A DNA stretch of 64,000 nucleotides, taken from Polychytrium aggregatum. Taxonomy: Eukaryota > Chytridiomycota > Chytridiomycetes > Polychytriales. The DNA lies in NCBI RefSeq assembly GCF_025602895.1, contig NW_026516211.1, positions 1,013,006 to 1,077,005 on the forward strand, written 5' to 3'. The number at the start of each line of letters is the position of its first letter. Positions within the stretch are counted from its first letter, which is position 1. The notes under the pieces were generated by a model that had not been told where the DNA came from, did no database searches, and worked only from the letters and a program-made list of their open reading frames with translations. Shown here one piece after another: positions 9,786 through 52,625 of the stretch. The translations under genes and the position numbers were made by a program.

Positions 9786-11393
9786 CCCTCGATCGAGACC
9801 AGAGGCGGGTACTGGGAATATACATTGTGTCTGCGGACGAGATGCCTCTGGCTCTGTCGCTCGCCAACAGAGCCCTGCGTCGCAGTGCGAGAGTATCTGG
9901 GAGCCTCGGGCTGGGTGGGTGGTCCGACGGCGCCTGGCCGCAATGACCAGGCAGGCTGGATCGGCTGTGGCGCAGGTAATGTGACGCTCACCTGACCGGG
10001 CGCTGTCCAGCCGCACCTTCGTCCACATCCATTCGCACAGTGGCCGCCCCCCGTCTCGCCCTTCGCCCCTTGGATGTCCTTTGGCCTTTGGATCACCCTG
10101 TCCAGCGCTCGATTCCGACGTCTCTGCCCTGCCCCCGGCTATCTGTCTTGGCTGTCGCCTGCCCTCGGTCCACCAGGGTGAGATCCGTCTGCTCCATAGC
10201 CGTGTCCGTGAGGGCTCTGCATCCATATGTCTCCGGCCCAGAGATGCGTCTTGCTCCAAGTGCAGTATCGCATCGAGAGCCCTCGCTCCCCGCCATCTCG
10301 CCAGTGCCGATCGCGATAGTTGATCGAGTCGCCTGCGTATTGGGGCGATCGTCTCAAGAGCCATCAATATAGCTACCGCAAGCTGCGGCTGCCGGCCTTG
10401 CAGCCGGTGGCGATCATGCCCTTGGCATCTGATCGAGCTGCCATCTCGCTGCCATCTCGCTGCCACGCACCGCTGGGCTGTCGAAAATCACCACTCGACC
10501 GCACCACTCGACCGCACCCGATATCTGGCCATCGACGGATTCCGAGATACCCATCGCAGCCTCCTCGACCGAACGAGCTGCAGATATGCGACATTCTTTA
10601 ACGCTCTTATTTTCTCGTGTTGTGTTTGCTACCTCCTACCCCCTCCCGTCTCGGCCTCGTTCCCTGCAAACCCTGTGGGCATGAAACCTGTCCCGCTTCT
10701 ATCAACGTCCCCGCGAATGGAAATGGCGAACACGTCTCTTGACCTGGACCGACCGGGTATCTGCTACTTGCCATGATCGGTGTCGCAGACTTCTTCTTCT
10801 TTCCTTCCCTCGCTTTTGTCCGCCCCGTTATCCTTGGTCGTTGCTCTTCCATCCTTCCGTTCTTGCAGCCATTCATTTTGTTCCTTTCCTTCCCTTTGTT
10901 TCTTTTACTTTCGTGCCGTTATTTCTCGATTCCCTTCTTCCGCGAGCTCGCTTCGTCATTATCCTTGCTCCCTCCAGCGTTTGGTTCTCTAGATAGGATC
11001 GCCCGTAAGTGCACTTTGGTGCTTGCTGCCCGTGTTGGTGATGGTTATGTTTCCCGGTGCGGCTCACAAGGGCGCTTACAAGCTCCTTCTGCACTGGACC
11101 AGTGTCCGACCGATTTGATGCTGCGAGTATCCTTGCGCGCTATTGTCGCTGAACCCTTTGCTCACTCGTGCGTGATCTGTTGTGCCGCTCAGATCGATCT
11201 TTCAAGTTACTAACTCGACGAAGCTCTGCCAACTGCAAGCCGGCGATCTTGGCAACATCAGAGACGCATTTGGATTTCTCTGGTCTTTTGTGTGTGCTCT
11301 CAATTCCAGCCATCATATCGCTCAGTCGAGAGGCTATCCCCACGTTTCTACCCGTCACGCTGCTCCAGTCGTAGCTGATCCAAGACTTGGCTC
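9786..11393. other. Long leader/promoter region before CCR4
   Basis: 1.6 kb without a recognised gene. A strongly pyrimidine-rich plus strand (10780-10990, mainly C and T) precedes CCR4, and a donor-like GTAAGT at about 11006 could start a 5' untranslated intron. A 310-codon minus-strand open frame (9534-10466) overlaps FEN1 exons and resembles nothing; I treat it as chance. Confidence 0.45.
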
Positions 11394-14032
11394 ATGTCTG
11401 AGAAGGATCAGGACACCCTTGCCTACAGCGGCTACACACTAGGCATGCCCTATAACCCGACAGGATCGCCCGGCCCAGCTGGATCGGCGAACGGATCCCC
11501 AGTTCCTTCGTCGCCTCTGGCTGGGTATGTCACTCAAGGACATCCCATGTACGCCAACTCTGCCCCCAAACTTGCCCATTACTCCCAGAAGCTTGCTGCC
11601 CAAGGTATCCAGTCGCCCCAGCCCACCCATCTCGCTGGCATGGGCATCCTGGGAGCAAGTCCGTATCAACAACAAGCCCTTCTCGGGGGCTCCAACGGCT
11701 CCATCAACGCCTCGATCAACGGCTCGACCAGCTCGCTGCTATCGACCGCTGCAACCGGACACCAGCGCCGCCAGCTTGAGCTTCTGAATGAGTCTCGGTC
11801 CATGAATGTCGCCCACCATCATGCACGAGTTGCTGCAGCCAATGCCAGGGCCGCAAACAACGGCGCCAACGACGGTACCTCGAACGGCGTCATGGTCGTC
11901 AACTCGATCGACCGTGCTTCCCAGTGGAACATTATCGATATGGGCGGCATGCAGATCAAGAACCTGAGTAGGAACCTGTTCCACTATCACTTCCTAACGA
12001 CGCTCTATCTCAACCACAACAACCTCACGAATCTGTCATCGGACGTTTGCAAGCTTGTCAACCTGAGGATCCTGGATCTTTCTGGCAACCAGCTCACGGC
12101 GATTCCGCCGGAACTGGGCCTGCTGGTTCAGTTGCGAGACCTGAGGCTCTTCGATAATGTTCTGTCCACGGTCCCGTTTGAGCTGGGATTCCTGTTCCAG
12201 CTGGAGATTCTCGGTCTGGAGGGCAATCCGCTGCAGGAGCCGCTGCTGGGCATGGTCCAGAAGGAAAACACTGCCACCATCCTTGCCTACATGCGAGACA
12301 ACTGCCCAAGTAAGTTTCCATCGGTGTACTCTGTGTATACACGCAAACTGCCGCGGTCCTCTTGCTACGTCCATGCTCCCGTACATACTCGGCTGTTGAT
12401 CTTGCATCGAGCATGCCCTCGTTCTAAATGCGCCGCTTTGGCCTCCTGTTTGTTTCAGTGGGTCCCCAGCCGCCGGAACGAGAATGGATTCCGCTGGAAG
12501 ACGAAGCTACTGCGTCCTCAAGCTCGAGCGGTAAGCCAGCCGCGGATATCAGCTTCGTTTGTGCCTCAGCCACAGCAGTTTGTCGTGCACTGCCACATCG
12601 CTGCCAGACACTGTTCTACGATGCCGCTAACTCGGTTCCTTTGGCTCGGCTTCTCCCCCCAGATACCTTTACGGTTCTGTCCTACAACATCCTCTGCGAG
12701 AAGTATTCTCCGCAGCAATCATATGCCTACACGCCATCATGGGCGCTGGAGTGGTCGTACCGGCGAGAGCTGCTCATCCAGGAAATCTTGAACTACAACC
12801 CCGACATTGTGTGTCTGCAGGTGAGTGAAGTTGACCGCCGCGTGCTCTCTCGCTTGCCCTCTATCCCCCTGTCTCTGGCATTGTACATCTGAAGAGCTAT
12901 CGCATCCAAGGCATCGGGTCGGCATCGCAATCACGTCCGAGCAGTCGCTACCGTCCCTCAAAATACTTACATGGTTTTTGGGGTGGCCAACCTGCAGGAA
13001 GTAGAGCTCGGACAGTATGAGGACTTTTTCCGCGAGCAGCTCAGCCAGCACGGGGAATACGATGGCGTCTTCCATGTCAAGTCAAGGGCCCGTACCATGG
13101 CTGTCAGTGATCAGCGCGGCGTTGACGGCTGTGCAACTTTTTACAAGAACTCCAAGTGAGTTGCATGATTCAATCGGCTGTTGCATCGGTATCGTTTCTG
13201 TATGTGGCAGCGACCACTGGTCACTTCCATGCCATGGGCACTGCGCCGAGCTGACGGTCGCTCTGCTCGCCAACATCACAGATTCACTCTGATCGACAAG
13301 AGCCTGATCGAGTACCAGCACTACGCCATGAAGCGCCCGGGCCTCCGCGGCAGCGAGGACGTCATCAACAGAGTCATGATCAAGGACAACGTCGCCGTGG
13401 CGATTCTGCTGGAGACAAAAGAAACACACCAGCGCCTCGTCGTTGCCAACACGCATCTGCACTGGGATCCTCAGCACCGTGACGTGAAGCTGGTGCAGAC
13501 GGCGATCCTGATGGAGGAGCTACAGCGCATCATCGGCACATACTCTCAGTCCGGCAAACAGGCGAACGGCGCCGGCGGCAAGGCCGGCCAACAGTCCCCA
13601 CTGCCCTTGATCCTCTGTGGCGATTTCAATTCGATGCCCGACAGTGGAGTCTACGAGTATCTCTCGAGCGGCCAGCTCAGCCACGACCACGAAGACTTTG
13701 GAACATACACCTACTTGCCCTACACGGCTGATGGCCTGAACCACAAGCTGCTGCTAAAATCCGCATATGCTCCCATCGAGAACGAACTGGAATTCACAAA
13801 CTACACACCCGGATTCAAGGGTGTGATCGACTACATCTGGTATTCTTCCAACACCCTCACCGTCACGGGACTGCTGGGAGGTGTCGACCGCGAATATGTA
13901 ACCAAGCAGGCGGTCGGATTCCCGAACAGCTACCATCCATCCGACCACATTCCCCTGGTGGTTTCCGTCCGAATCAAGAGCGCCAGCGGCGGAGGCAACC
14001 CCAACGCGGCCAAAACCATCAAATTCAAATAA
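11394..14032 (+). CDS. CCR4: CCR4 deadenylase (CNOT6-like)
   Basis: Catalytic exonuclease of the CCR4-NOT complex, which shortens mRNA poly(A) tails in the cytoplasm. Five exons: 11394-12309, 12459-12530, 12663-12820, 12998-13155, 13282-14032; 684 residues. Order of parts: a low-complexity N-terminus rich in S, G, N and A (1-180); leucine-rich repeats at about 195-290 ([26 protein letters not shown]), which in yeast bind Caf1; then the exonuclease-endonuclease-phosphatase domain. In that domain [15 protein letters not shown], the catalytic Glu in [33 protein letters not shown] and PSDHIPLV are all visible, so activity is expected. The A-rich tract after the stop may be part of the 3' end. Confidence 0.96.
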
Positions 14033-14207: not shown

Positions 14208-15020
14208 TCACGAGCTCGAGCGTGGATCACATGGACATGAGTCGATCTTGGATTCGAGGTGCTGGATTTGGAGGCCTTGGCCGCGGATCTGGTGATTCAG
14301 GTTGGCGATCTCGACCAGCACCTCCAGCGCTGCAGACATGCCATGTGCGGTGGGAATGAGAGTGCAAGGGTTATAAAACGATTGCCGCCAGATGAAACGA
14401 GGGGCTGGCCGAACGAGACACATGGCGCCCAGCGGCTTCGCTGGGTCGCCTAAAGGCCGCACCGATTCCGCCATCGCCGATGCATGCAGCCGATACATGC
14501 AGCCAATGACGATGCACGAACGAAACCAACCGTCTGAGAACCCGCGCTGGGCATCCTTCAGAGACTGCGGAGACAGGACACCAAACCAGTTGAGAGGATC
14601 CGAGGAATCGCGGGCTACAGGGGGCTTGTCTTCGCCGTTGTCGCAACCGACGGCTCCATCCTGGTGCATGGCTTTGCATGCACTCTTACGAGAGAGTACC
14701 AGCTCATCCGGCGAGTCGACAGCCCCGGGTTCGCCGCTGGCTGGGTGTGCATCGCCCTCGTCCGATCCAGTCGCCGATCGAGCCGCAACACAAGCTCGGG
14801 GATCCGGGGCTTTGAGCGCCTGCCTGTTGTACTGGAAGGAGCACAAGCGCTCCGGACCCATTACGTACTTGGCTTTGGCAAAGTCCCAGAAAGCCGATGC
14901 AAGATGCTTGTGGGCGCGGGCCTGGAGCTCCTGCAGCCGGTCGCATTTGTCGAGGAGCGACAAGAGGGCTTCGTCGAGGCGATCGTGGATGAGCGCGGGA
15001 GAGTCGTCCGGAACAGTCAT
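14208..15020 (-). CDS. VMA22: Vma22/CCDC115-like V-ATPase assembly factor
   Basis: Homologue of the endoplasmic reticulum factor that helps assemble the membrane (Vo) sector of the vacuolar ATPase. Starting at the ATG at 15020 it reads 270 residues: an N-terminal coiled coil (RLDEALLSLLDKCDRLQELQ), FWDFAKAKYVMG, and the family hallmark DPLNWFGVLSPQSLKDAQ. The C-terminal helix ALEVLVEIANLNHQIRG closes the family pattern. Between the last two parts lie 67 residues with no family counterpart, exactly bounded by a donor (GTTGGT, 14530) and an acceptor (CAG, 14330), so this is probably a 201-base in-frame intron. Without it the protein is 203 residues, nearer the usual length of about 180. Confidence 0.8.
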   Translation of the reverse strand: MTVPDDSPALIHDRLDEALLSLLDKCDRLQELQARAHKHLASAFWDFAKAKYVMGPERLCSFQYNRQALKAPDPRACVAARSATGSDEGDAHPASGEPGAVDSPDELVLSRKSACKAMHQDGAVGCDNGEDKPPVARDSSDPLNWFGVLSPQSLKDAQRGFSDGWFRSCIVIGCMYRLHASAMAESVRPLGDPAKPLGAMCLVRPAPRFIWRQSFYNPCTLIPTAHGMSAALEVLVEIANLNHQIRGQGLQIQHLESKIDSCPCDPRSSS

Positions 15021-15451
15021 GGCACCGAGCGTTCTCTCGATACAGAGGGTGTCCAGGATGCTGTGGATGTGCAGAGGCGAAGCAGGACGCACGTAATGCA
15101 GCGCAGCGATGCGGCGGGTGCAGATGGATCGACCGGGAGGTGTGCGATTGCGCGACGGAGCGGGCGAGGGCGGGAAGAAACCAGGGGCGCTGTGGCGGTG
15201 TGTTCTGTGCCGCGCTGCAGCCACAGACCAATTTGTCAGCGCGAGTGCTCCCGGTTTCGTTATCGAAACTCGCTGCTCCAGCCAGCCGGTCCGCCAGCCA
15301 GAAGCCCCAGCTCTGCCGCACATCGCACATCGCACATCGCACATCGCACATCGCACATCGCACATCGCATCTGCTCATCTGCTCATCTGCTGTGGCCAGC
15401 CCGTCTGCAAAGCTTTCCTCCATCACAGATCTTGCTGAGCATACTCGAATC
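15021..15451. other. Divergent promoter of VMA22 and GRX
   Basis: 431 bases between two start codons pointing away from each other. It contains the 7-base repeat listed separately; otherwise GC-rich with no recognised motif. Confidence 0.5.
15318..15390. repeat. 7-base array (GCACATC)n followed by TCTGCTCA units
   Basis: About seven perfect copies of a 7-base unit, then two to three copies of an 8-base unit TCTGCTCA. Lies 60-130 bases upstream of the GRX start codon, likely in its 5' leader or core promoter. Too short and uniform, with no spacers, to be a CRISPR array. Confidence 0.9.
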
Positions 15452-41702: not shown

Positions 41703-44700
41703 TCAGGCGGATCCGCTGGGGCTCTGCTCGGCCGAGATCTTTCTCAAGATGTCGTCGTAGTACTTTGCATGGACTTCCTTGGTGTGCTTCGTGAGCAGCA
41801 CAAACTTGGTGACCAGCTCCTCGAGCTCGGTCTGGACGATATCCAAACCGTGGCTTGCCAGGGAGTCTCGCTTGAAAACACCACCCGTCAATTGAGCGCG
41901 AGCAATCGACTGCACCCGGCGGCTGAGCAGGGTGTACACCGGGTCCTTGTAAGACAGCGTCTTCTCGACCATTTGCTGGATGAGCTGCTTCTGCTCCGGT
42001 GTCAGTGTCTTGGGTGACAGGGCCGCGACGGGGGACCCGGTCGAGCTCGAGAGTGTTGGAGGGCGTCCTGTCTTGGGGCTCTGGGCGGCGGACTGCTTGG
42101 CAAAGACCGAATCGAGAGTTGCGACGATCTGCACCCACAGGTGCTCGATCGTTGTTTCTGGATCTCGCAGCAGGACAAAGAGCACCTCCTTCAGCTTGGA
42201 GACAGCGGCGACATCTCGCCTGAGCTCGGTGACAATGTTCTTTGCCAGCATGACCAGAGCCGCCACGATCGTCAGGGCCTGGGCTTCGTTCTGGTAAGCA
42301 TAGAGCCGAGCAGCGTCGAGTTGGAGGGTTTCTGGAACAGACTTCATAGAAACGGCAGCGGTGGCATTGAAGACGATGCTGAGCATGGCATCGTGGAAGA
42401 CATCCTCGAAGCGTATCTTGTTTTCGGGAGCGTCGATGTTCTCGGGGTTGCGAGCCGCCGAGATTTGGGCGAGATTCCTATATGCTGTCTCGAGCCATGC
42501 CGTGGTCTTTTCGAGGGTAAACGACCCGGCATGCAGGGCCTGCTCAAACTTGAGCTGCTCGTAGGACACGGCCTGGGCCTTGAGGTGAGGACGCAGGGCC
42601 TGCAGACGGTAGTTGGCCAGATCCACTTTCATGTCTTCCAAGATGTCCATGATCTTTTCAAAGACTGCGGCCAGGTCAGTCATGCCCTCGATCTGGCGAA
42701 TGGGTGCATCGCGGATAGGCGCACACAGCGAGATCATCTTTGCGGTAATGTAGTGGATGCATCGCGGAATGTCGAAGACGTTGTTGTTGATCTGTTGCTG
42801 GATCAGATCGCCATCGAGGGCTTCGTTGATCTCCTGCGCTATGCGGCCGCCTGAGCTGACCATCGCCAGCAGTTGCTGTTTAGGCAAAGGGCAAGGACAT
42901 GGCGGCGAGGTGGTGCGTTAGAAAGGCGGGCTGAGAGCTCTGGCGTCTCCGGACGTCCGCGGCATTTGGCTTACTAGTGCCAGTTCTGCAGTCGACATCG
43001 ACGCTCGCTCTGCTGCGTCGACTCTCAAGCCCGCTTGCCGCCTTGTCCACGTAGCACCCACAGCAAGGGGATGGGCTGCTCACCTGCTTGATGTCTGCAA
43101 TAAATGCAGGCAAATACTCCGAGAACTGGCCTCTTTGGAATTCACGGCGTGCCCCGTCGAAGAAGGCCTTCTTGGCAATGGTACGGACCTGCTCCTCGAG
43201 GGCAGAGCGCGGCGGCGGCTTCAGGCTGAAGTTTGGATCGAGAATCAACTCGTGCGCCAGCTGCTCGTTCGTAAGCTCGTTGGAAAACCCTGGTACGACA
43301 TTCTGGAGCTTGGGGATGTCGCCCGTGGGAGTGGGCAGGTAGCGCGGCGGGTTGGCGGCAGGTAGGCCTGTCAACGATCCCGTTGGGGCGGACTCGACCG
43401 ATTTTGCTGGGCTCCGCGATCTGGTGGGCGACCGGCTTGGAGATTGGCTCGAGGAGCTACGGGAAGTTTGAACCGAGTCAGAGCGATCCGTCGAAGTCAA
43501 CGACGGGAATCGCTGGGGCGAGGTCGACAGCTTCGGGAGGGCACGGCCGCGACGGCCGTCAGGGCTGGGGTCGCTTGCCGTTGGGCCCTGGTTGGTCTGA
43601 GCCGCCCCAGGAACAGGAATGGGGCTGGATGCCGAGTGCGACGAAGGGTCGTCGACCGCATCGGATGTGCCGAGGACTTCGTTCTGGATCCTCTCTTGCT
43701 GGGCATGCAGCTTCTGCAGCGCTCGCTTGCCGAATTTGGCGAGGCGGGACTGGATTTGCCTCTGCTGCCTCTCGAGCTTGGGCTTCCACTCAACGTCAGC
43801 GTGGGGCTGGTCTCGCACAGAGAGCCAGAGGCGCTCCAACTCAATCCAGTGAGCGACCATGCCGTCGATCATCTTGCGGGTGTCTTCGGCTTTCCACTTC
43901 TGGAACGAGGCAAAGTAGGACGTCCATGCGTCGCTGAACTGCAGGGCGAGTTCATATCCCTTGGGCGTCGAGTACCCACGAGTCCAGTTTTCGAAGGACT
44001 GGATCATGGTCTCGGCTGCTTTGCTGAGGGCCTGCGAGCCGACGGCGCCGAGATGGCCATCCGAGAGACAGACATCGACATGGACACAGCAATATCCGAG
44101 CCGTGCAGGATGATGATGAGCGGCCAGATCGAGGAAGGGCACAGGGCAATAGATGGAGAGTGTTTGGGAGGAGGGGATTTAGGGGTGCGTGAGATTGTGA
44201 ACTGGTCGATCCCGGGAGACGAAACAGGTCCGGCACGCGATTTGTCGCCGCCATCACCCAGGCCGGCCATGATCGACAACATGGCCATCCGGACAGCAAC
44301 CAGTTGCCCAGAGCCAGCGGCCGGCTGCTTGGAGGCACAAATCAGCACACGAAAGCAACTCCTACCTTTTCCTCGTGACCGACATTCGGCATGGTGGCCT
44401 TCGGATGGGCAGCAATCATGTAGGAGCTCAGGAAGATGCGTGCCGGTGATTTCCACTCGGGGCGATCGTGGTGGGAGCGGTCTCGGGTCATGGCCCGGAG
44501 ACGAGCAAACAGCTCCTCAACGGTCTTGATGAGCGGATCAGCCTGGATGAGCTTGACGACGTCGTCAAAGGCGAGGCGCATGACCTGGTAGAGCTCCAGG
44601 TCCGACTCGAGCAGACGAGCGATCGGGGCAGCGAGCTTGGCTGCCCTCCATTTGCGCTGGATGGCGGTTGCAGCAACGAGACGCACGGACTCGTATTCGG

Positions 44701-45211
44701 GGCGTTGGCCGCCACTCTCAACGAATCGAGAGCGCGGAATGCACTTGAGACGCTGCGAGAGGCCGGGGGTAATGTACAGACGGTCCTCCAGAGACTTGCA
44801 GAGCAGCTCGGCCTGGATGGCGCGCCGGAGAGCCTGGAGCTCGGCGACCTTGCGAGCATGCGTGACAGCCTCCCGGCTCTTGCGGACCTGCTCCTCAATC
44901 AGAGTCTGGCGGTTCTGCTCGGCGTGGGCGATGGACTCATTCAAATGGATGCCTCGCATCATGCTCTTGGTGCGGAGGCGGTGGTGGTGCTGGGCGAGGG
45001 TGTCGCGGATGTACGAGTATCGCCGGGCCAGCTTCAAGCGACGGGCCTCCAAGAATGCATTGCGCCGAGAGGCGGGGGTGGACGTCTTGAAGACCGCTTG
45101 GCTCTTCAGGCCGTGGGATTCAAACCGCTCTGCAACAAAGTGGGGCTTTTTGGATTTTTGCACCAGCCCAGAGGCGTCGAGAGACCAAAACGCAGCCGAG
45201 TTCTGGTTCAT
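41703..45211 (-). CDS. TCP11: TCP11/Sok1-family protein
   Basis: Member of the T-complex protein 11 family (yeast Sok1), linked to cAMP/PKA signalling and, in mammals, sperm flagellar function. Three exons on the minus strand: 45211-44366, 44031-43084, 42875-41703, all phase 0; 988 residues, long for the family because of an inserted disordered stretch (about 390-470, rich in S, P, R and T). The N-terminal third is helical and charged with an IQ-like motif (AATAIQRKWRAAKL), then FLSSYMIAAHP, the family-typical motif. The C-terminal domain contains FDIPRCIHYITAKMISLCAP, RDAPIRQIEGM and LANYRLQALRPHL, the classic TCP11 core. The basic N-terminus (SRRNAFLEARRLKLARRYS) resembles animal orthologues. 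Confidence 0.92.
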
Positions 45212-46284
45212 GGCGAGCGAGCGAGCGAGAGGTGATGCTGGCGAGCTGGGGTCTGGAAGACGGGATAGTGTGCGAACTTGTGAGAGAGAGGATGGACCCT
45301 TGGAGGACGGACTGGGACCACGGGATGCTTGGATGGCAGAATGCGGGGCGAGAGAGATGCAGGAAGAAAGAGGTCGCGGACGGGGCCGGCGATGAAGCGG
45401 GTCGCTGGGCGTGGGATTCGGGGGAGGGATCGAGCTGTTCGATCCGCCTGGCGAGAGTGGTTCGTCTGTGGGATCGTAGACAATTTGTAAGCGCGGCCGA
45501 CGACGCAGACGACGACAAACCAGCGACGGAGATTGAAATCGGGCAGGAGCAGTCCAAATATGGAGACACGCACCGAAGAAAGAGAAGGCGATGGAAGGCG
45601 GTCAGGAAGGCCAAGTGCTCCGTGCGAGTCGGGGGGTGGATGTGCAAGGCCAGAGGCAGTGCGAGAAAGGAAGCGTCCTTCGGGAGGGGGCTGCTACCGA
45701 AGGATGCGGCATATATTTGCGGTGCTGATGCAAGGTTTGGGGGCGAGATGGCCTCGCAATCTGCCCTGCCCTCTGTCCTGCGCAAGCAGGCCGGGATCAG
45801 GCAACAGCACACCTTGTTCCAAAAATAGGGACATGTTTGTCTTCTGTTGGATCAGCGGCTTTGCCAAACACATCGGGCGCTCAGCTGACGACAGTTCGGA
45901 CAAGATATTCGTCGAGGACGGCGCTGTCCATGCGAGACACATGAGCCAACGGCCGGGTCTCATGGCGCAACTCCTTGGCGGCGTGTCCGGCCAAGAGGAA
46001 AGCCGGCCCGAGCACCGAGCGATACGCCCATCACGGGGCGATGAGGCGATGCGGGTGACCGTGCTGTTCGAGGAACAAGCAGTCCAGCGAGGTCGCTTGG
46101 CGATGCAGATGAGAGAGGGACGGTCCTCGGTGAGAGACGCAGACCCACCAAGCAGCGGTGCCTGGGACGGCCCTGCTGTGTATTGAGTTCGTGCGGTGGG
46201 AATACAGGACAGTATCGCACGCAGCCGTCAGCAAGGGCGGTGGCCTCTGCTCAAGTGGCTTCTGCTCAGAAGGTGGCCTCCTGC
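45212..46284. other. Spacer TCP11 promoter / pyruvate kinase 3' side
   Basis: 1.07 kb between two minus-strand genes. Open frames on both strands lack family features. Nothing recognised. Confidence 0.4.
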
Positions 46285-49200
46285 TCAGAGGCTGGGAACC
46301 TCGACAACCTGCATTTTAGTGGTGGTGCCCTCGAGGAAACCGACGCTCTGGAAGTCACGGAAGCCGATTCAGTGGCGTGGGGAAGAGATGGCAAGTGAAA
46401 GTGATGAGCAATGGGCCCGGTCGTTCGGTGACGAATTGCGACGCAAGAGATGGCGAGTATGGCGTAACGTGGAAGCTGGTTGCCTCGGCATTTTGCCACT
46501 CGCCGGAAGTGCCCGTGTTGCACACCGTTGTCGTCATGCGTATTCATGTTCCGCGCCCGCTCTCTCGCCACACACACAAGTCCTGCACCATCGGATCATG
46601 CGTAGTTTCCCACAGAGCCATCTCGCCGGACAGCTCCCACGACAGGTGCCGTGGCCCTTCGTCTTACCTGTCCGGAAGTGATGACGGCAATCTGCCCGGG
46701 CTGGCACAGACCAATCTCGACGGCGTAGCCTGAAAAATACACAGCTCTGGTGAGACGGCCGCTGCGATGCGTATCCCACATGTCGCCACGCTTTGTCGTC
46801 GCCCGTCCCGAGACACCACCCCGCGCCACCAAGACGAGCAAGTAAGAGGATCACATACGCAGAGTCTCCGGAATGAGCGAGTCCTGGGAATAGCGGAGCG
46901 AGATACAAAGCGTCAGGACTACGATACCAACCACGATACCAACCACGATGGCGATCACGGTAACAACCACGGTTACAACCAAGATGGCAGTCGCCAGCGC
47001 CTGACGGGTCGAGACAGCGACTAGAACGCATCGAGCCCACTGCGACGAGCATATATCCTCTCCGATCGCGTGCGCTCAACATACGGGTGATCCAGAATGG
47101 TAGAAGGGCACGACGCCAAAGCTGAGGCCCAGCTGGCGAGCCGTCACCGCGATGTGCGTGGCAGCGACAATGGGGATGTCGGGGCGATACTTGGCAACCA
47201 GCTTTGCGGTGCCACCGTATTCGGTGGTGCAGATGATCAAAGACGCATTGACCTGACGCGAGCACAGAACCGCAGACGAGGCAATACTTTCGGAAACGCC
47301 GATGGGCTTGGGGATGCGTCGCATCATCTTGACCTGATACTCGGCGTAGTTGGGGACCTTCTCGGCCTCAGCGGCAATGCGGCGCATGATCTTGACGCAC
47401 GCCTCGGGGTAGTCGCCTGTATGTTATATCTTGATTAGCGCATCGGGGAAGTGTGGATCGCTTCCGGCCAGGCCACAGAGTTGCGACACTCACCAACGGC
47501 AGTTTCGCCGGACAGAACCAATCCATCGGCGCCATCGATGACGGCATTGGCCTGGTGTTGTAGAGAAAAGTGCCGTCGCCATTGTTTACATGAGGATGCT
47601 GCTGACTCATCTGCCCGCCCATCTCCGGTGCAATCACTTTGCCGGCATGGTATGGCTTCGCGTTCCCAGCATGACATCGCGTTCCAGACACTATTCGCAC
47701 CCAAACAACATACCACATCGGCAGCTTCGGATCTGCATGTCCGATGAATCGCTGGTTAGACCATCGCCATGGCATGGAGATGCAATACAGTGCATAGACG
47801 CGAAGCTGTACTTACCGGGTAGGACGGGGGCTGGTGCGCATGGACTCGAGCATCTGGTTGGCCACGAGCACGACCTTGCCGGCGGTGTTGGCCTGTTTGA
47901 TCAGCCGTCAGTAAAGTTCGGAGACATCCTTGCATTCCGTGGCGCCTTTCCAAGAGCAGGTCCGCAGCAGCCCGAGGAACACACCGCAACCGGGCAAATA
48001 AACTTACATAGTCAATCATTTCCTTCTGGCTCGTGGTGACGATCTCGATGCCGACCTCGCATCCGAGATAGCCACGATCGATGACGATACCGTCGGCAAA
48101 GTTCAGGATCTGTTTGTAGCTCTGCATACCGCGCTCGTTTTCGATCTTGGCCAGCAGCTTGACTTTGCTGTTGCCCAGAAGAATACTGCGAGCGGGAAGG
48201 AGAGAGAGAAACGCACGGGTGCGACCCAGTTACAGCCATACTGATCAACGCTTGCTCTGGTAGAGTCGCCCAGTGGTGTAAACATGCGCAGCGAAGCACA
48301 CCAATCGCAGGTCTAACCGACGAGACGCTTACCGAGCCTCTTCAACATCCTCGACGGAGCGGATGCATGAGACGGAGATGAAATCAACATTGTTCTGGAG
48401 AGCAAAGTTGATGTCGGTGCGGTCCTTCTCGCTGAGGGCAGGGAGATCCTCGACAACGCGCTTGGGAATGTTGATGCCCTGCAATGGACGCACGTCCTCG
48501 CTGTTATCAAGGGTATCGAGCGGTACCCGGCGCACACGTAGCGATTGCTGTTGCTCTCGTAGAATTGACCACGTCCCGCCTTACCTTGTTCTCACCAAGA
48601 TAGCCTGGCGGGGCACACCAGAAAGTAATATCAGCCACTGAACCTCCCCACGAATCCTCCTTGCATTGCAACATCACGCTCATCAAGGCTAGACGTACCA
48701 GAGTTCAGGACGACGGTCTTGAGCGAGTCGTCGGTACGTCCGACAACCTTGAAGCTCAGGATTCCATCGTCGATGTAGAGGGTCTCGCCAACCTCGACGT
48801 GCTTCTTGGTATAGGAGCAGCCAACCTACAGCCACCCGCGCGATATCAAGTTGGCGGATCAGCCGATAGTTCGCTGGCACCCCGGCCAAGATCGAGATCA
48901 AGAGACACAAGGAAGCTGCATAAACTCGGACGGGCGGATACCTGGGTGCTGTCACCGATCAGGTCAACATCGTTGCGGATCCAGAACTCTTGTCCGACCT
49001 CCAGGTAGACAGGCTGGGAGTTGACGAGGCGGCCACTTCTGCAGATATAAAGACAGAGTTGATAAGGATTCCGGCTACGGAAGGAAGTCGGCAACAACAT
49101 ATAGCCAGCCGGATGCTGGGGATAGAAGCCCATGGCTTGGTCGCTCGGACATACGCCAGGGTGCGGGCAGATGCTGGTACACATGGGGCATTCGTCTACT

Positions 49201-49803
49201 GACCGAACTTTGGGGCCGTTGGTGTCGACCCAGATGGCGACTTGAGCAGTGCTGTTGGACTCCTGGAGACACTCGCGGATGCTGGTGATCACCTCGCTGA
49301 CAAACTCGTGAGTCGAGTGGCTCAGGTTCAGACGGGCCACATTCATGCCGGCGTTGATCAGGGTCTTCAGGGATTCCTTGTCCGAGGAGGCTGGATCGTG
49401 GCCATCGCGGCGGATATTGGAAGGAACATCAGCGAGAAACATGATCCGAGCGAATATGGCGCACCCGTACGTAAACAGCGCCATCGAACGACCCTGACGA
49501 TACCGGCATTGAGTCGCTACGGCAGATTCGGATGGGTCTGTGGGTGGGCCTGCGGACGGGCAACAGGCGATCGACGCGAAACTTACCAGGGCCGATGGTG
49601 CAAACGACCTTGGTTCGAAGGGGGTGATCCTTCGACTCTGTTGGATGGGCCCGAGTCGAGCGAGCGGATATACGCCGTCGTTATTGCGTGGACATGGGTG
49701 GCTGGCGGCGAGGCATGGACGGACACCGGCTTCAACCTCGACAGCAGAGGCGGCCCAGCGGAAACGTACCCACGATGTAGTCGGGGTGAGTGCGTTGAAC
49801 CAT
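46285..49803 (-). CDS. PYK1: Pyruvate kinase, divergent active site
   Basis: Pyruvate kinase fold (phosphoenolpyruvate + ADP to pyruvate + ATP, last step of glycolysis). Fifteen minus-strand exons: 49803-49770, 49637-49587, 49390-49204, 49038-48942, 48825-48699, 48604-48585, 48478-48333, 48185-48008, 47892-47816, 47732-47714, 47551-47494, 47416-47085, 46883-46859, 46729-46668, 46347-46285; 491 residues, normal length and fully in frame. Present: RTKVVCTIGP, NVARLNLSH, KIENERG, DGADGLVLSGETA and the C-terminal domain ending SVGFLEGTTT. Odd: the Mg-binding motif usually ARGDLG reads DRGYLG (Tyr260), ATQMLES reads ANQMLES (Asn292), and DTKGPE reads DTNGPK (86-89). The Lys (234) and Glu (236) of KIEN are kept. 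Either a variant enzyme or a paralogue with altered activity. Confidence 0.9.
46917..46980. repeat. Degenerate 14-15 base repeat in a pyruvate kinase intron
   Basis: Units built on ACGATACCAACC and ACGGTAACAACC, about four to five degenerate copies, lying in the intron between exons 12 and 13. Confidence 0.7.
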
Positions 49804-52102: not shown

Positions 52103-52625
52103 GGCCAGCGGCTTCACACCCCTGCATTCATATGATAATCCGTGTCGCCATCTCTATGGCGGCGTCAACTCTGCATTTCACATATACTCGTTCCAAGAAA
52201 CAACGGGCATGCTCCCATATGTCAGCGTAGTCTGTGATGGCATGCGTCCAACTATGCCATAAGAAATAAATCAAATCACTTTGGGCAGCCTCCGAGTGAA
52301 CACCACCGGTCGCTCTCCGGTCTCCACAATCGACCTGCACACTGTTCTCGGAGTGCCAGCGGCGAATGGTGCTCTTGGACACACTGGCGAATGGTCATGG
52401 CCAGCACGCGATGGTATTGGGTAACAGATATTTGATCAATAGTCAATAACCAGGGTGTCCCGCTTTTTCTCGGATCGCCTGTAAATCATTCCAAGAAGTG
52501 AATCGCCGACTTCTCCCGCTGGTGACCCGATCCGAGACAGCCACAGCAAACACGTTTGTCTGCCTGTTTCCTCCCGTTCAGCCCTGCCTTCCATCTGCCT
52601 GCATCGTCTCTATCCTTCTCCCGTC
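52103..52625. other. Spacer before the EI24-like gene
   Basis: 523 bases; holds a probable AAATAAA 3' end signal near 52263-52270 and the promoter of the next gene. No other feature seen. Confidence 0.45.

Follow-up and report, generated by a model that had tools for sequence, protein, structure and literature searches.

The window, that is the whole stretch of 64,000 nucleotides analysed here, carries a pyruvate kinase (PK)-like gene of Polychytrium aggregatum that is likely (a probability of about 0.7) to be a paralogue kept by selection and unable to perform the metal-dependent reaction PEP + ADP -> pyruvate + ATP. Its product, related to a central enzyme of energy metabolism, would probably have lost catalysis or been turned to another use. 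The fold is conserved, the reading frame is maintained, a catalytic residue is lost and a canonical paralogue, C57, is present in the genome. A non-catalytic paralogue had been one of the options offered by an earlier, sequence-only reading of the gene, and it is well supported by the canonical C57 gene, by the changed Asp295, Thr327 and Ala292 and by the kept frame and fold.

An intact gene with an altered PEP/metal pocket

The gene lies on the minus strand, with its ATG at 49803 and its stop codon ending at 46285. The coding sequence of 1476 nt is free of internal stops and the 14 introns are all of the GT..AG type, in line with the in-frame, full-length chain of 15 exons that had been described and with all the residue numbers then given (Arg48/Asn50, DTNGPK at 84-89, Lys234/Glu236, Tyr260 and Asn292). 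Hereafter, positions such as Asp295 and Thr327 follow the numbering of rabbit PK, and Tyr260, Asn292 and Asp257 that of the window protein. In the list below, the whole gene was rebuilt from the raw sequence and the exons come from that model, with residues placed by alignment and the domain content of exon 12 taken from the model and Pfam.

46285..49803, minus strand: PK-like gene, start to stop codon, 15 exons, 491 aa
49770..49803, minus strand: exon 1, with the start codon
49587..49637, minus strand: exon 2
49204..49390, minus strand: exon 3, with RLNLSH (Arg48, Asn50) and DTNGPK (84-89)
48942..49038, minus strand: exon 4, B domain
48699..48825, minus strand: exon 5, B domain
48585..48604, minus strand: exon 6
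48333..48478, minus strand: exon 7, with Cys210 for Phe243
48008..48185, minus strand: exon 8, with KIEN (Lys234 and Glu236 kept) and Val255, Asp257 and Tyr260 for Met290, Ala292 and Asp295
47816..47892, minus strand: exon 9, with ANQMLES, Asn292 for Thr327; its 3' end falls within the Arg306 (Arg341) codon
47714..47732, minus strand: exon 10, with Ser307 for Ala342
47494..47551, minus strand: exon 11, with LSGET kept (Ser326, Glu328) and Val324 for Met359
47085..47416, minus strand: exon 12, end of the barrel and most of the C domain
46859..46883, minus strand: exon 13, C domain
46668..46729, minus strand: exon 14, C domain
46285..46347, minus strand: exon 15, with the stop codon

The protein matches the Pfam families PK (PF00224, 341 bits over residues 19-339, cut-off 30) and PK_C (PF02887, 86.8 bits over residues 374-485, cut-off 28), as well as the NCBIfam model TIGR01064 "pyruvate kinase" (446.1 bits for a cut-off of 306.4). 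Barrel, lid and C-terminal domain are thus full-length and score above the curated cut-offs, and the A barrel, B lid and C domain of canonical eukaryotic PK (EC 2.7.1.40) are all present. TIGR01064 being a PK model of the "equivalog" type, a match at 446 bits would also lead to the protein being labelled an active glycolytic enzyme, which is a warning for annotation.

The active site was examined in an alignment of the window protein with 93 other PKs, namely C57 and C90 from the same genome, yeast 1a3w, human PKM, Toxoplasma 3eoe, Cryptosporidium 4drs (4 of the 102 matching PDB chain sequences were put into the alignment), 80 prokaryotic loci, which are the best 80 of at least 579 relatives, and 7 loci from viral contigs. 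Columns at least 97% invariant were considered near-invariant, giving 52 columns in this 94-sequence alignment. The window PK departs at seven of them (F243C, M290V, A292D, D295Y, T327N, A342S and M359V), against none in C57, yeast and human, one each in Toxoplasma and Cryptosporidium, and one plus one gap in C90. Two of these changes had been noticed before and are confirmed: Tyr260 stands for the metal-site Asp295 and Asn292 for Thr327, and each of these two positions, where it is occupied, holds its usual residue in 91 of 91 other sequences. The other five were absent from the sequence-only reading, and counted in the same way, Ala292, replaced by Asp257, is Ala in 91/91 others, A342, M290 and M359 are each unchanged in 91/91 and F243 in 90/90. 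One of the two patterns used to find genome loci permitted Thr or Asn at 327, so that Thr was not forced there by the search. The 7 relatives obtained from a scan of viral contigs showed no loss of Asp295 where a residue is present at that position.

From rabbit PK structures, we take Asp295 to be a direct ligand of the metal that holds PEP and, with Glu271, one of the two protein ligands that presumably form the divalent-metal site of an active PK. In the window protein, Glu271 is kept as Glu236 and Asp295 has given way to Tyr260, and in the PEP pocket Thr327 and Ala292 are replaced by Asn292 and Asp257. The Tyr would remove one of the two ligands of the activating divalent metal and, together with the changed Thr327, Ala292 and Phe243, would prevent normal PEP binding and phosphotransfer.

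The remainder of the site is well preserved. Lys269, Glu271, Arg72, Arg119, Arg293, Gly294, Ser361, Glu363 and Arg341 are kept, and the alignment bears out the earlier statement that Lys234/Glu236 (Lys269/Glu271) and Arg48/Asn50 are retained. On a list of PK functional residues based on rabbit/human PK annotation, nucleotide/K+-site residues are kept in 11 of 11 cases and PEP/metal-site residues in 5 of 9. Lys269, Arg72, Ser361 and the nucleotide/K+ site of an active EC 2.7.1.40 enzyme are all found in the window PK.

The loop reading DTNGPK instead of DTKGPE had also been counted among the altered catalytic positions. The substitutions are there (K114N and E117K), but the change of Glu to Lys does not stand as a catalytic loss, Lys being found at this position in 39 of the 84 comparison loci that have a residue in that column. 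According to excerpts of two studies, Glu117 is the mark of K+-dependent PKs and Lys117 that of K+-independent PKs (PMC8835810, PMC4374775), and the rabbit E117K enzyme is active and K+-independent with about 35% kcat (PMC8835810). As the natural state of active K+-independent PKs, Lys117 is no lesion in itself. The rabbit variant, along with the kept Lys269, Glu271, Arg72, Arg119 and Ser361, would be compatible with a window PK that is still active, weakly or with a shifted metal use. We consider this very unlikely, considering that Asp295, the presumed metal ligand, is unchanged in 91/91 others, that four PEP/metal-pocket residues are changed together and that the genome holds a canonical PK.

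Descent from a eukaryotic pyruvate kinase

A profile search over the assembly (64.7 Mb, 418 contigs) gave PF00224 matches at three PK loci, C57, C25/C90 and the window gene (contig C408, plus a copy on C33), and a protein search of the assembly found no PK loci beyond those three. C57 is an intact canonical PK gene of 6 exons with RGDLG, ATQMLES and DTKGPE. The second, canonical PK that the sequence-only reading had proposed to look for is therefore present, with changes at 0 of the 52 near-invariant columns, and a scenario in which the window gene represents the loss of the genome's only PK was rejected on account of C57.

In a tree of 89 rows (5 of the 94 sequences, fragments, left out), the window PK is joined to C57 with an SH-aLRT of 82, and the eukaryotic group that contains them has 99; in a tree of 32 rows (62 of 94 left out) the same pairing obtains 86/79 and the eukaryotic group 100/99. 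With this moderate support, the window PK would be the sister of C57. The pairing agrees with a shared intron position, since the phase 2 intron after exon 3 (GPxxR|SG) is common to both genes; one shared position is observed for 0.047 expected by chance with 14 and 5 introns. The terminal branch of the window PK is long, 1.85 against 0.56 for C57 in the 89-row tree and 2.7 against 0.74 in the 32-row tree. The suggestion that the gene stands for a distinct PK class is not demonstrated, for it nests beside C57 on a long branch and is a single known locus here. A bacterial origin was likewise rejected, as in the 32-row tree the window PK clusters with the five eukaryotic PKs of the Glu117 type at 100/99. 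It shares 44% identity with C57, 42-43% with the human and Toxoplasma enzymes and 39% with that of yeast. In neither tree is yeast grouped with the pair of C57 and the window PK; in the 32-row tree this pair stands beside two apicomplexan PKs (89/89), a placement unresolved in the 89-row tree. C57 itself is not grouped with yeast and human PK; its identity is 52.6% with the human enzyme and 43.4% with that of yeast.

The third locus consists of C25 and C90, near-identical copies (99.78%) of a Lys117-type PK gene with RGDLG and ATQMLES. The copy at C90:408000-411000 bears introns and encodes Leu113/Cys114/Lys117, with a gene model incomplete at its 3' end, and in the tree it groups among bacterial Lys117-type sequences. 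Eukaryotic PKs carry Glu117, as stated in excerpts of PMC4374775 and PMC8835810, and PK isozymes in both clusters are thought, in an excerpt of PMC5501398, to be unique to gamma-proteobacteria; the Glu117-type and Lys117-type clusters are both represented in this fungal genome. Lys117 is common to the Lys117-type PKs (the bacterial cluster and C25/C90) and the window PK. However, the former usually have Leu113/Gln114/(Leu,Ile,Val)120, as described in part of PMC8835810, and the window PK has Thr113/Asn114/Ser120; none of the 84 comparison loci combines Lys117 with Thr113, which makes the pairing in the window PK unusual. Membership of the Lys117 cluster was rejected because of Thr113/Asn114 and of the position in the tree with Glu117-type eukaryotic PKs (100/99). 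Since the window PK nests with these Glu117-type enzymes, its Lys117 looks like a separate change.

Maintenance of the gene and location of its divergence

The coding sequence is strongly codon-biased. With preferred codons defined on C57, their fraction is 0.63 compared with 0.374 +/- 0.021 in 500 synonymous draws at intron composition, and GC3 is 0.752 compared with 0.568 +/- 0.022 in the same draws. Furthermore, when C57, as a stand-in for the ancestor of the window gene, was mutated neutrally to 44% identity, stops appeared in 200 of 200 runs (mean 10.2, minimum 3). An open frame, codon bias and no stop where the simulation gives at least three together indicate that the protein was kept by selection through most of its history.

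These data bear on the view that the locus is a young pseudogene or the product of a sequencing or assembly error, which might appeal to the fast divergence of the window PK and to the state of the C33 copy. The end of contig C33 matches window positions 45077-48616 at 99.83% and differs, bar its last bases, by six single-base indels only, two of which are in exon 7. Differences confined to indels resemble assembly noise, and the two contigs, C33 and C408, are in agreement across exons 8-11, altered residues included. Given also a frame open across 15 exons, 14 of 14 canonical introns and the codon bias and simulation described above, we find a pseudogene or an error hardly credible. As for the altered residues in particular, Tyr260 (TAT) in exon 8 and Asn292 (AAC) in exon 9 are encoded within exons, away from splice junctions, and a sequencing or splicing error behind them was rejected on these grounds and on the agreement of the two contigs over exons 8-11. 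We infer that C33 may be an uncollapsed haplotype with contig-end errors, because many loci of the assembly occur as near-identical pairs, as in the list of chitin synthases. The chitin synthase profile matches 71 pieces of the assembly and also 4 of 14 bacterial/archaeal controls, and the Fungal_trans profile 11 pieces and 0 of 14 controls; both sets of matches speak for a fungal genome.

The divergence was compared inside and outside the A2 half of the barrel (residues 219-388). Outside A2, identity to C57 is ordinary, with 124/290 for the window PK, 127/296 for human (p=1) and 118/283 for Toxoplasma (p=0.8). Inside A2 it is reduced, 82/168 for the window PK against 117/168 for human (p=0.00015) and 113/168 for Toxoplasma (p=0.00088). 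The contrast with yeast is weaker (100/168 inside, p=0.063; 103/296 outside, p=0.051, yeast being the less C57-like there). Judging from these identities, the extra divergence is in the catalytic half of the barrel, the lid and C domain having apparently evolved at an ordinary pace. A2 also holds all seven altered near-invariant columns, but as it contains 37 of the 52 such columns, this clustering alone is not significant (p=0.077).

Possible functions of the window protein

Relative to canonical PKs, the window PK thus has in common the nucleotide/K+ site, Lys269, Glu271 and Arg341, and differs by the lack of Asp295, Ala292, Thr327 and Phe243, by Lys117 and Asn114 and by its long branch. Most likely, it would serve the canonical PK as a partner that binds a ligand or enters hetero-oligomers. 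What favours a partner role is the preservation of the other domains, of the pocket's nucleotide half and of Arg341, a subunit-contact residue; in Cryptosporidium PK, the equivalent of Arg341 extends to the active-site helix of the adjacent subunit, as described in an excerpt of PMC3467265. The window subunit could assemble with canonical subunits through conserved interfaces and tune them, although hetero-oligomerization as such, granted that activity is lost, is a guess that would fail more often than hold. Residues with no obvious role in assembly are also retained (Lys269, Glu271, Ser361, Glu363 and the 11 of 11 nucleotide/K+-site residues), which exceeds the needs of a plain scaffold and may point to ligand binding or chemistry that has persisted.

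This retention of Lys269, Glu271, Ser361 and Glu363 makes the main rival an enzyme whose PEP/metal subsite has been rewritten (A292D, D295Y, T327N, F243C, E117K, K114N) for a new substrate, metal or reaction. The one-sided pattern of 11/11 and 5/9 kept residues on the list of functional residues would fit it, as would a branch several times that of C57 (1.85 vs 0.56; 2.7 vs 0.74), an acid at position 292 seen in 0 of 91 other PKs and Lys117 with Thr113 seen in 0 of 84 loci. Asp257, three residues before Tyr260, could then provide a displaced carboxylate. Nevertheless, Tyr at 295 brings a large side chain without charge, no relative that shares the pocket residues was found among the 93 aligned PKs to attest the conservation of the new pocket, and we regard such a rebuilt enzyme as unlikely. 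In a related and tentative formulation, the protein might act beside the canonical PK of this early-diverging fungus as a nucleotide-dependent sensor or an enzyme of new specificity, with nucleotide, K+, Lys and Glu elements kept by selection and the PEP/metal half rebuilt; equally tentative is its version in pocket detail, where the Asp would have moved from 295 to 292, accompanied by Tyr at 295, Asn at 327 and Lys at 117.

For the preferred reading, a paralogue without ordinary PK activity, the closest known parallel is in Drosophila, which has six PK genes including a paralogue named Pykl1 (PMC11836677, PMC10755183). Eighteen non-canonical paralogues of Drosophila carbohydrate enzymes, known or predicted to be inactive, were given a "like" suffix, according to part of PMC11836677. 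The PK paralogues are likewise diverged extras beside one canonical enzyme, and "like" designates a predicted pseudoenzyme; they differ in belonging to an insect and in being mostly testis-restricted, and the likeness is one of description, not of sequence (excerpts of PMC11836677 and PMC10755183). Our literature search found no fungal PK pseudoenzyme. By this analogy, the window PK may be a fungal example of the pseudoenzyme type of PK paralogue known from Drosophila, its loss being confined to one side of the site, the PEP/metal subsite. An intact, codon-biased gene lacking Asp295 lets one ask, in a natural setting, why the PK fold is retained where ordinary catalysis is improbable, the candidate purposes being regulation of the canonical enzyme, nucleotide sensing and new chemistry.

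As for the surroundings of the gene, tRNA and Rfam scans of the 64-kb window gave no match. At window positions 52213-52486 lies a repeat of some 270 bp that is dispersed over the genome, with at least 41 further matches of 77-91% identity (40 of 1093 candidates scored). A gene matching T-complex protein 11 (PF05794, 260.7 bits) neighbours the PK gene at 41703-44178 on the minus strand, and the open frames at 11379-12791 (plus strand) and 14208-15374 (minus strand) match leucine-rich repeats and Vma22/CCDC115.
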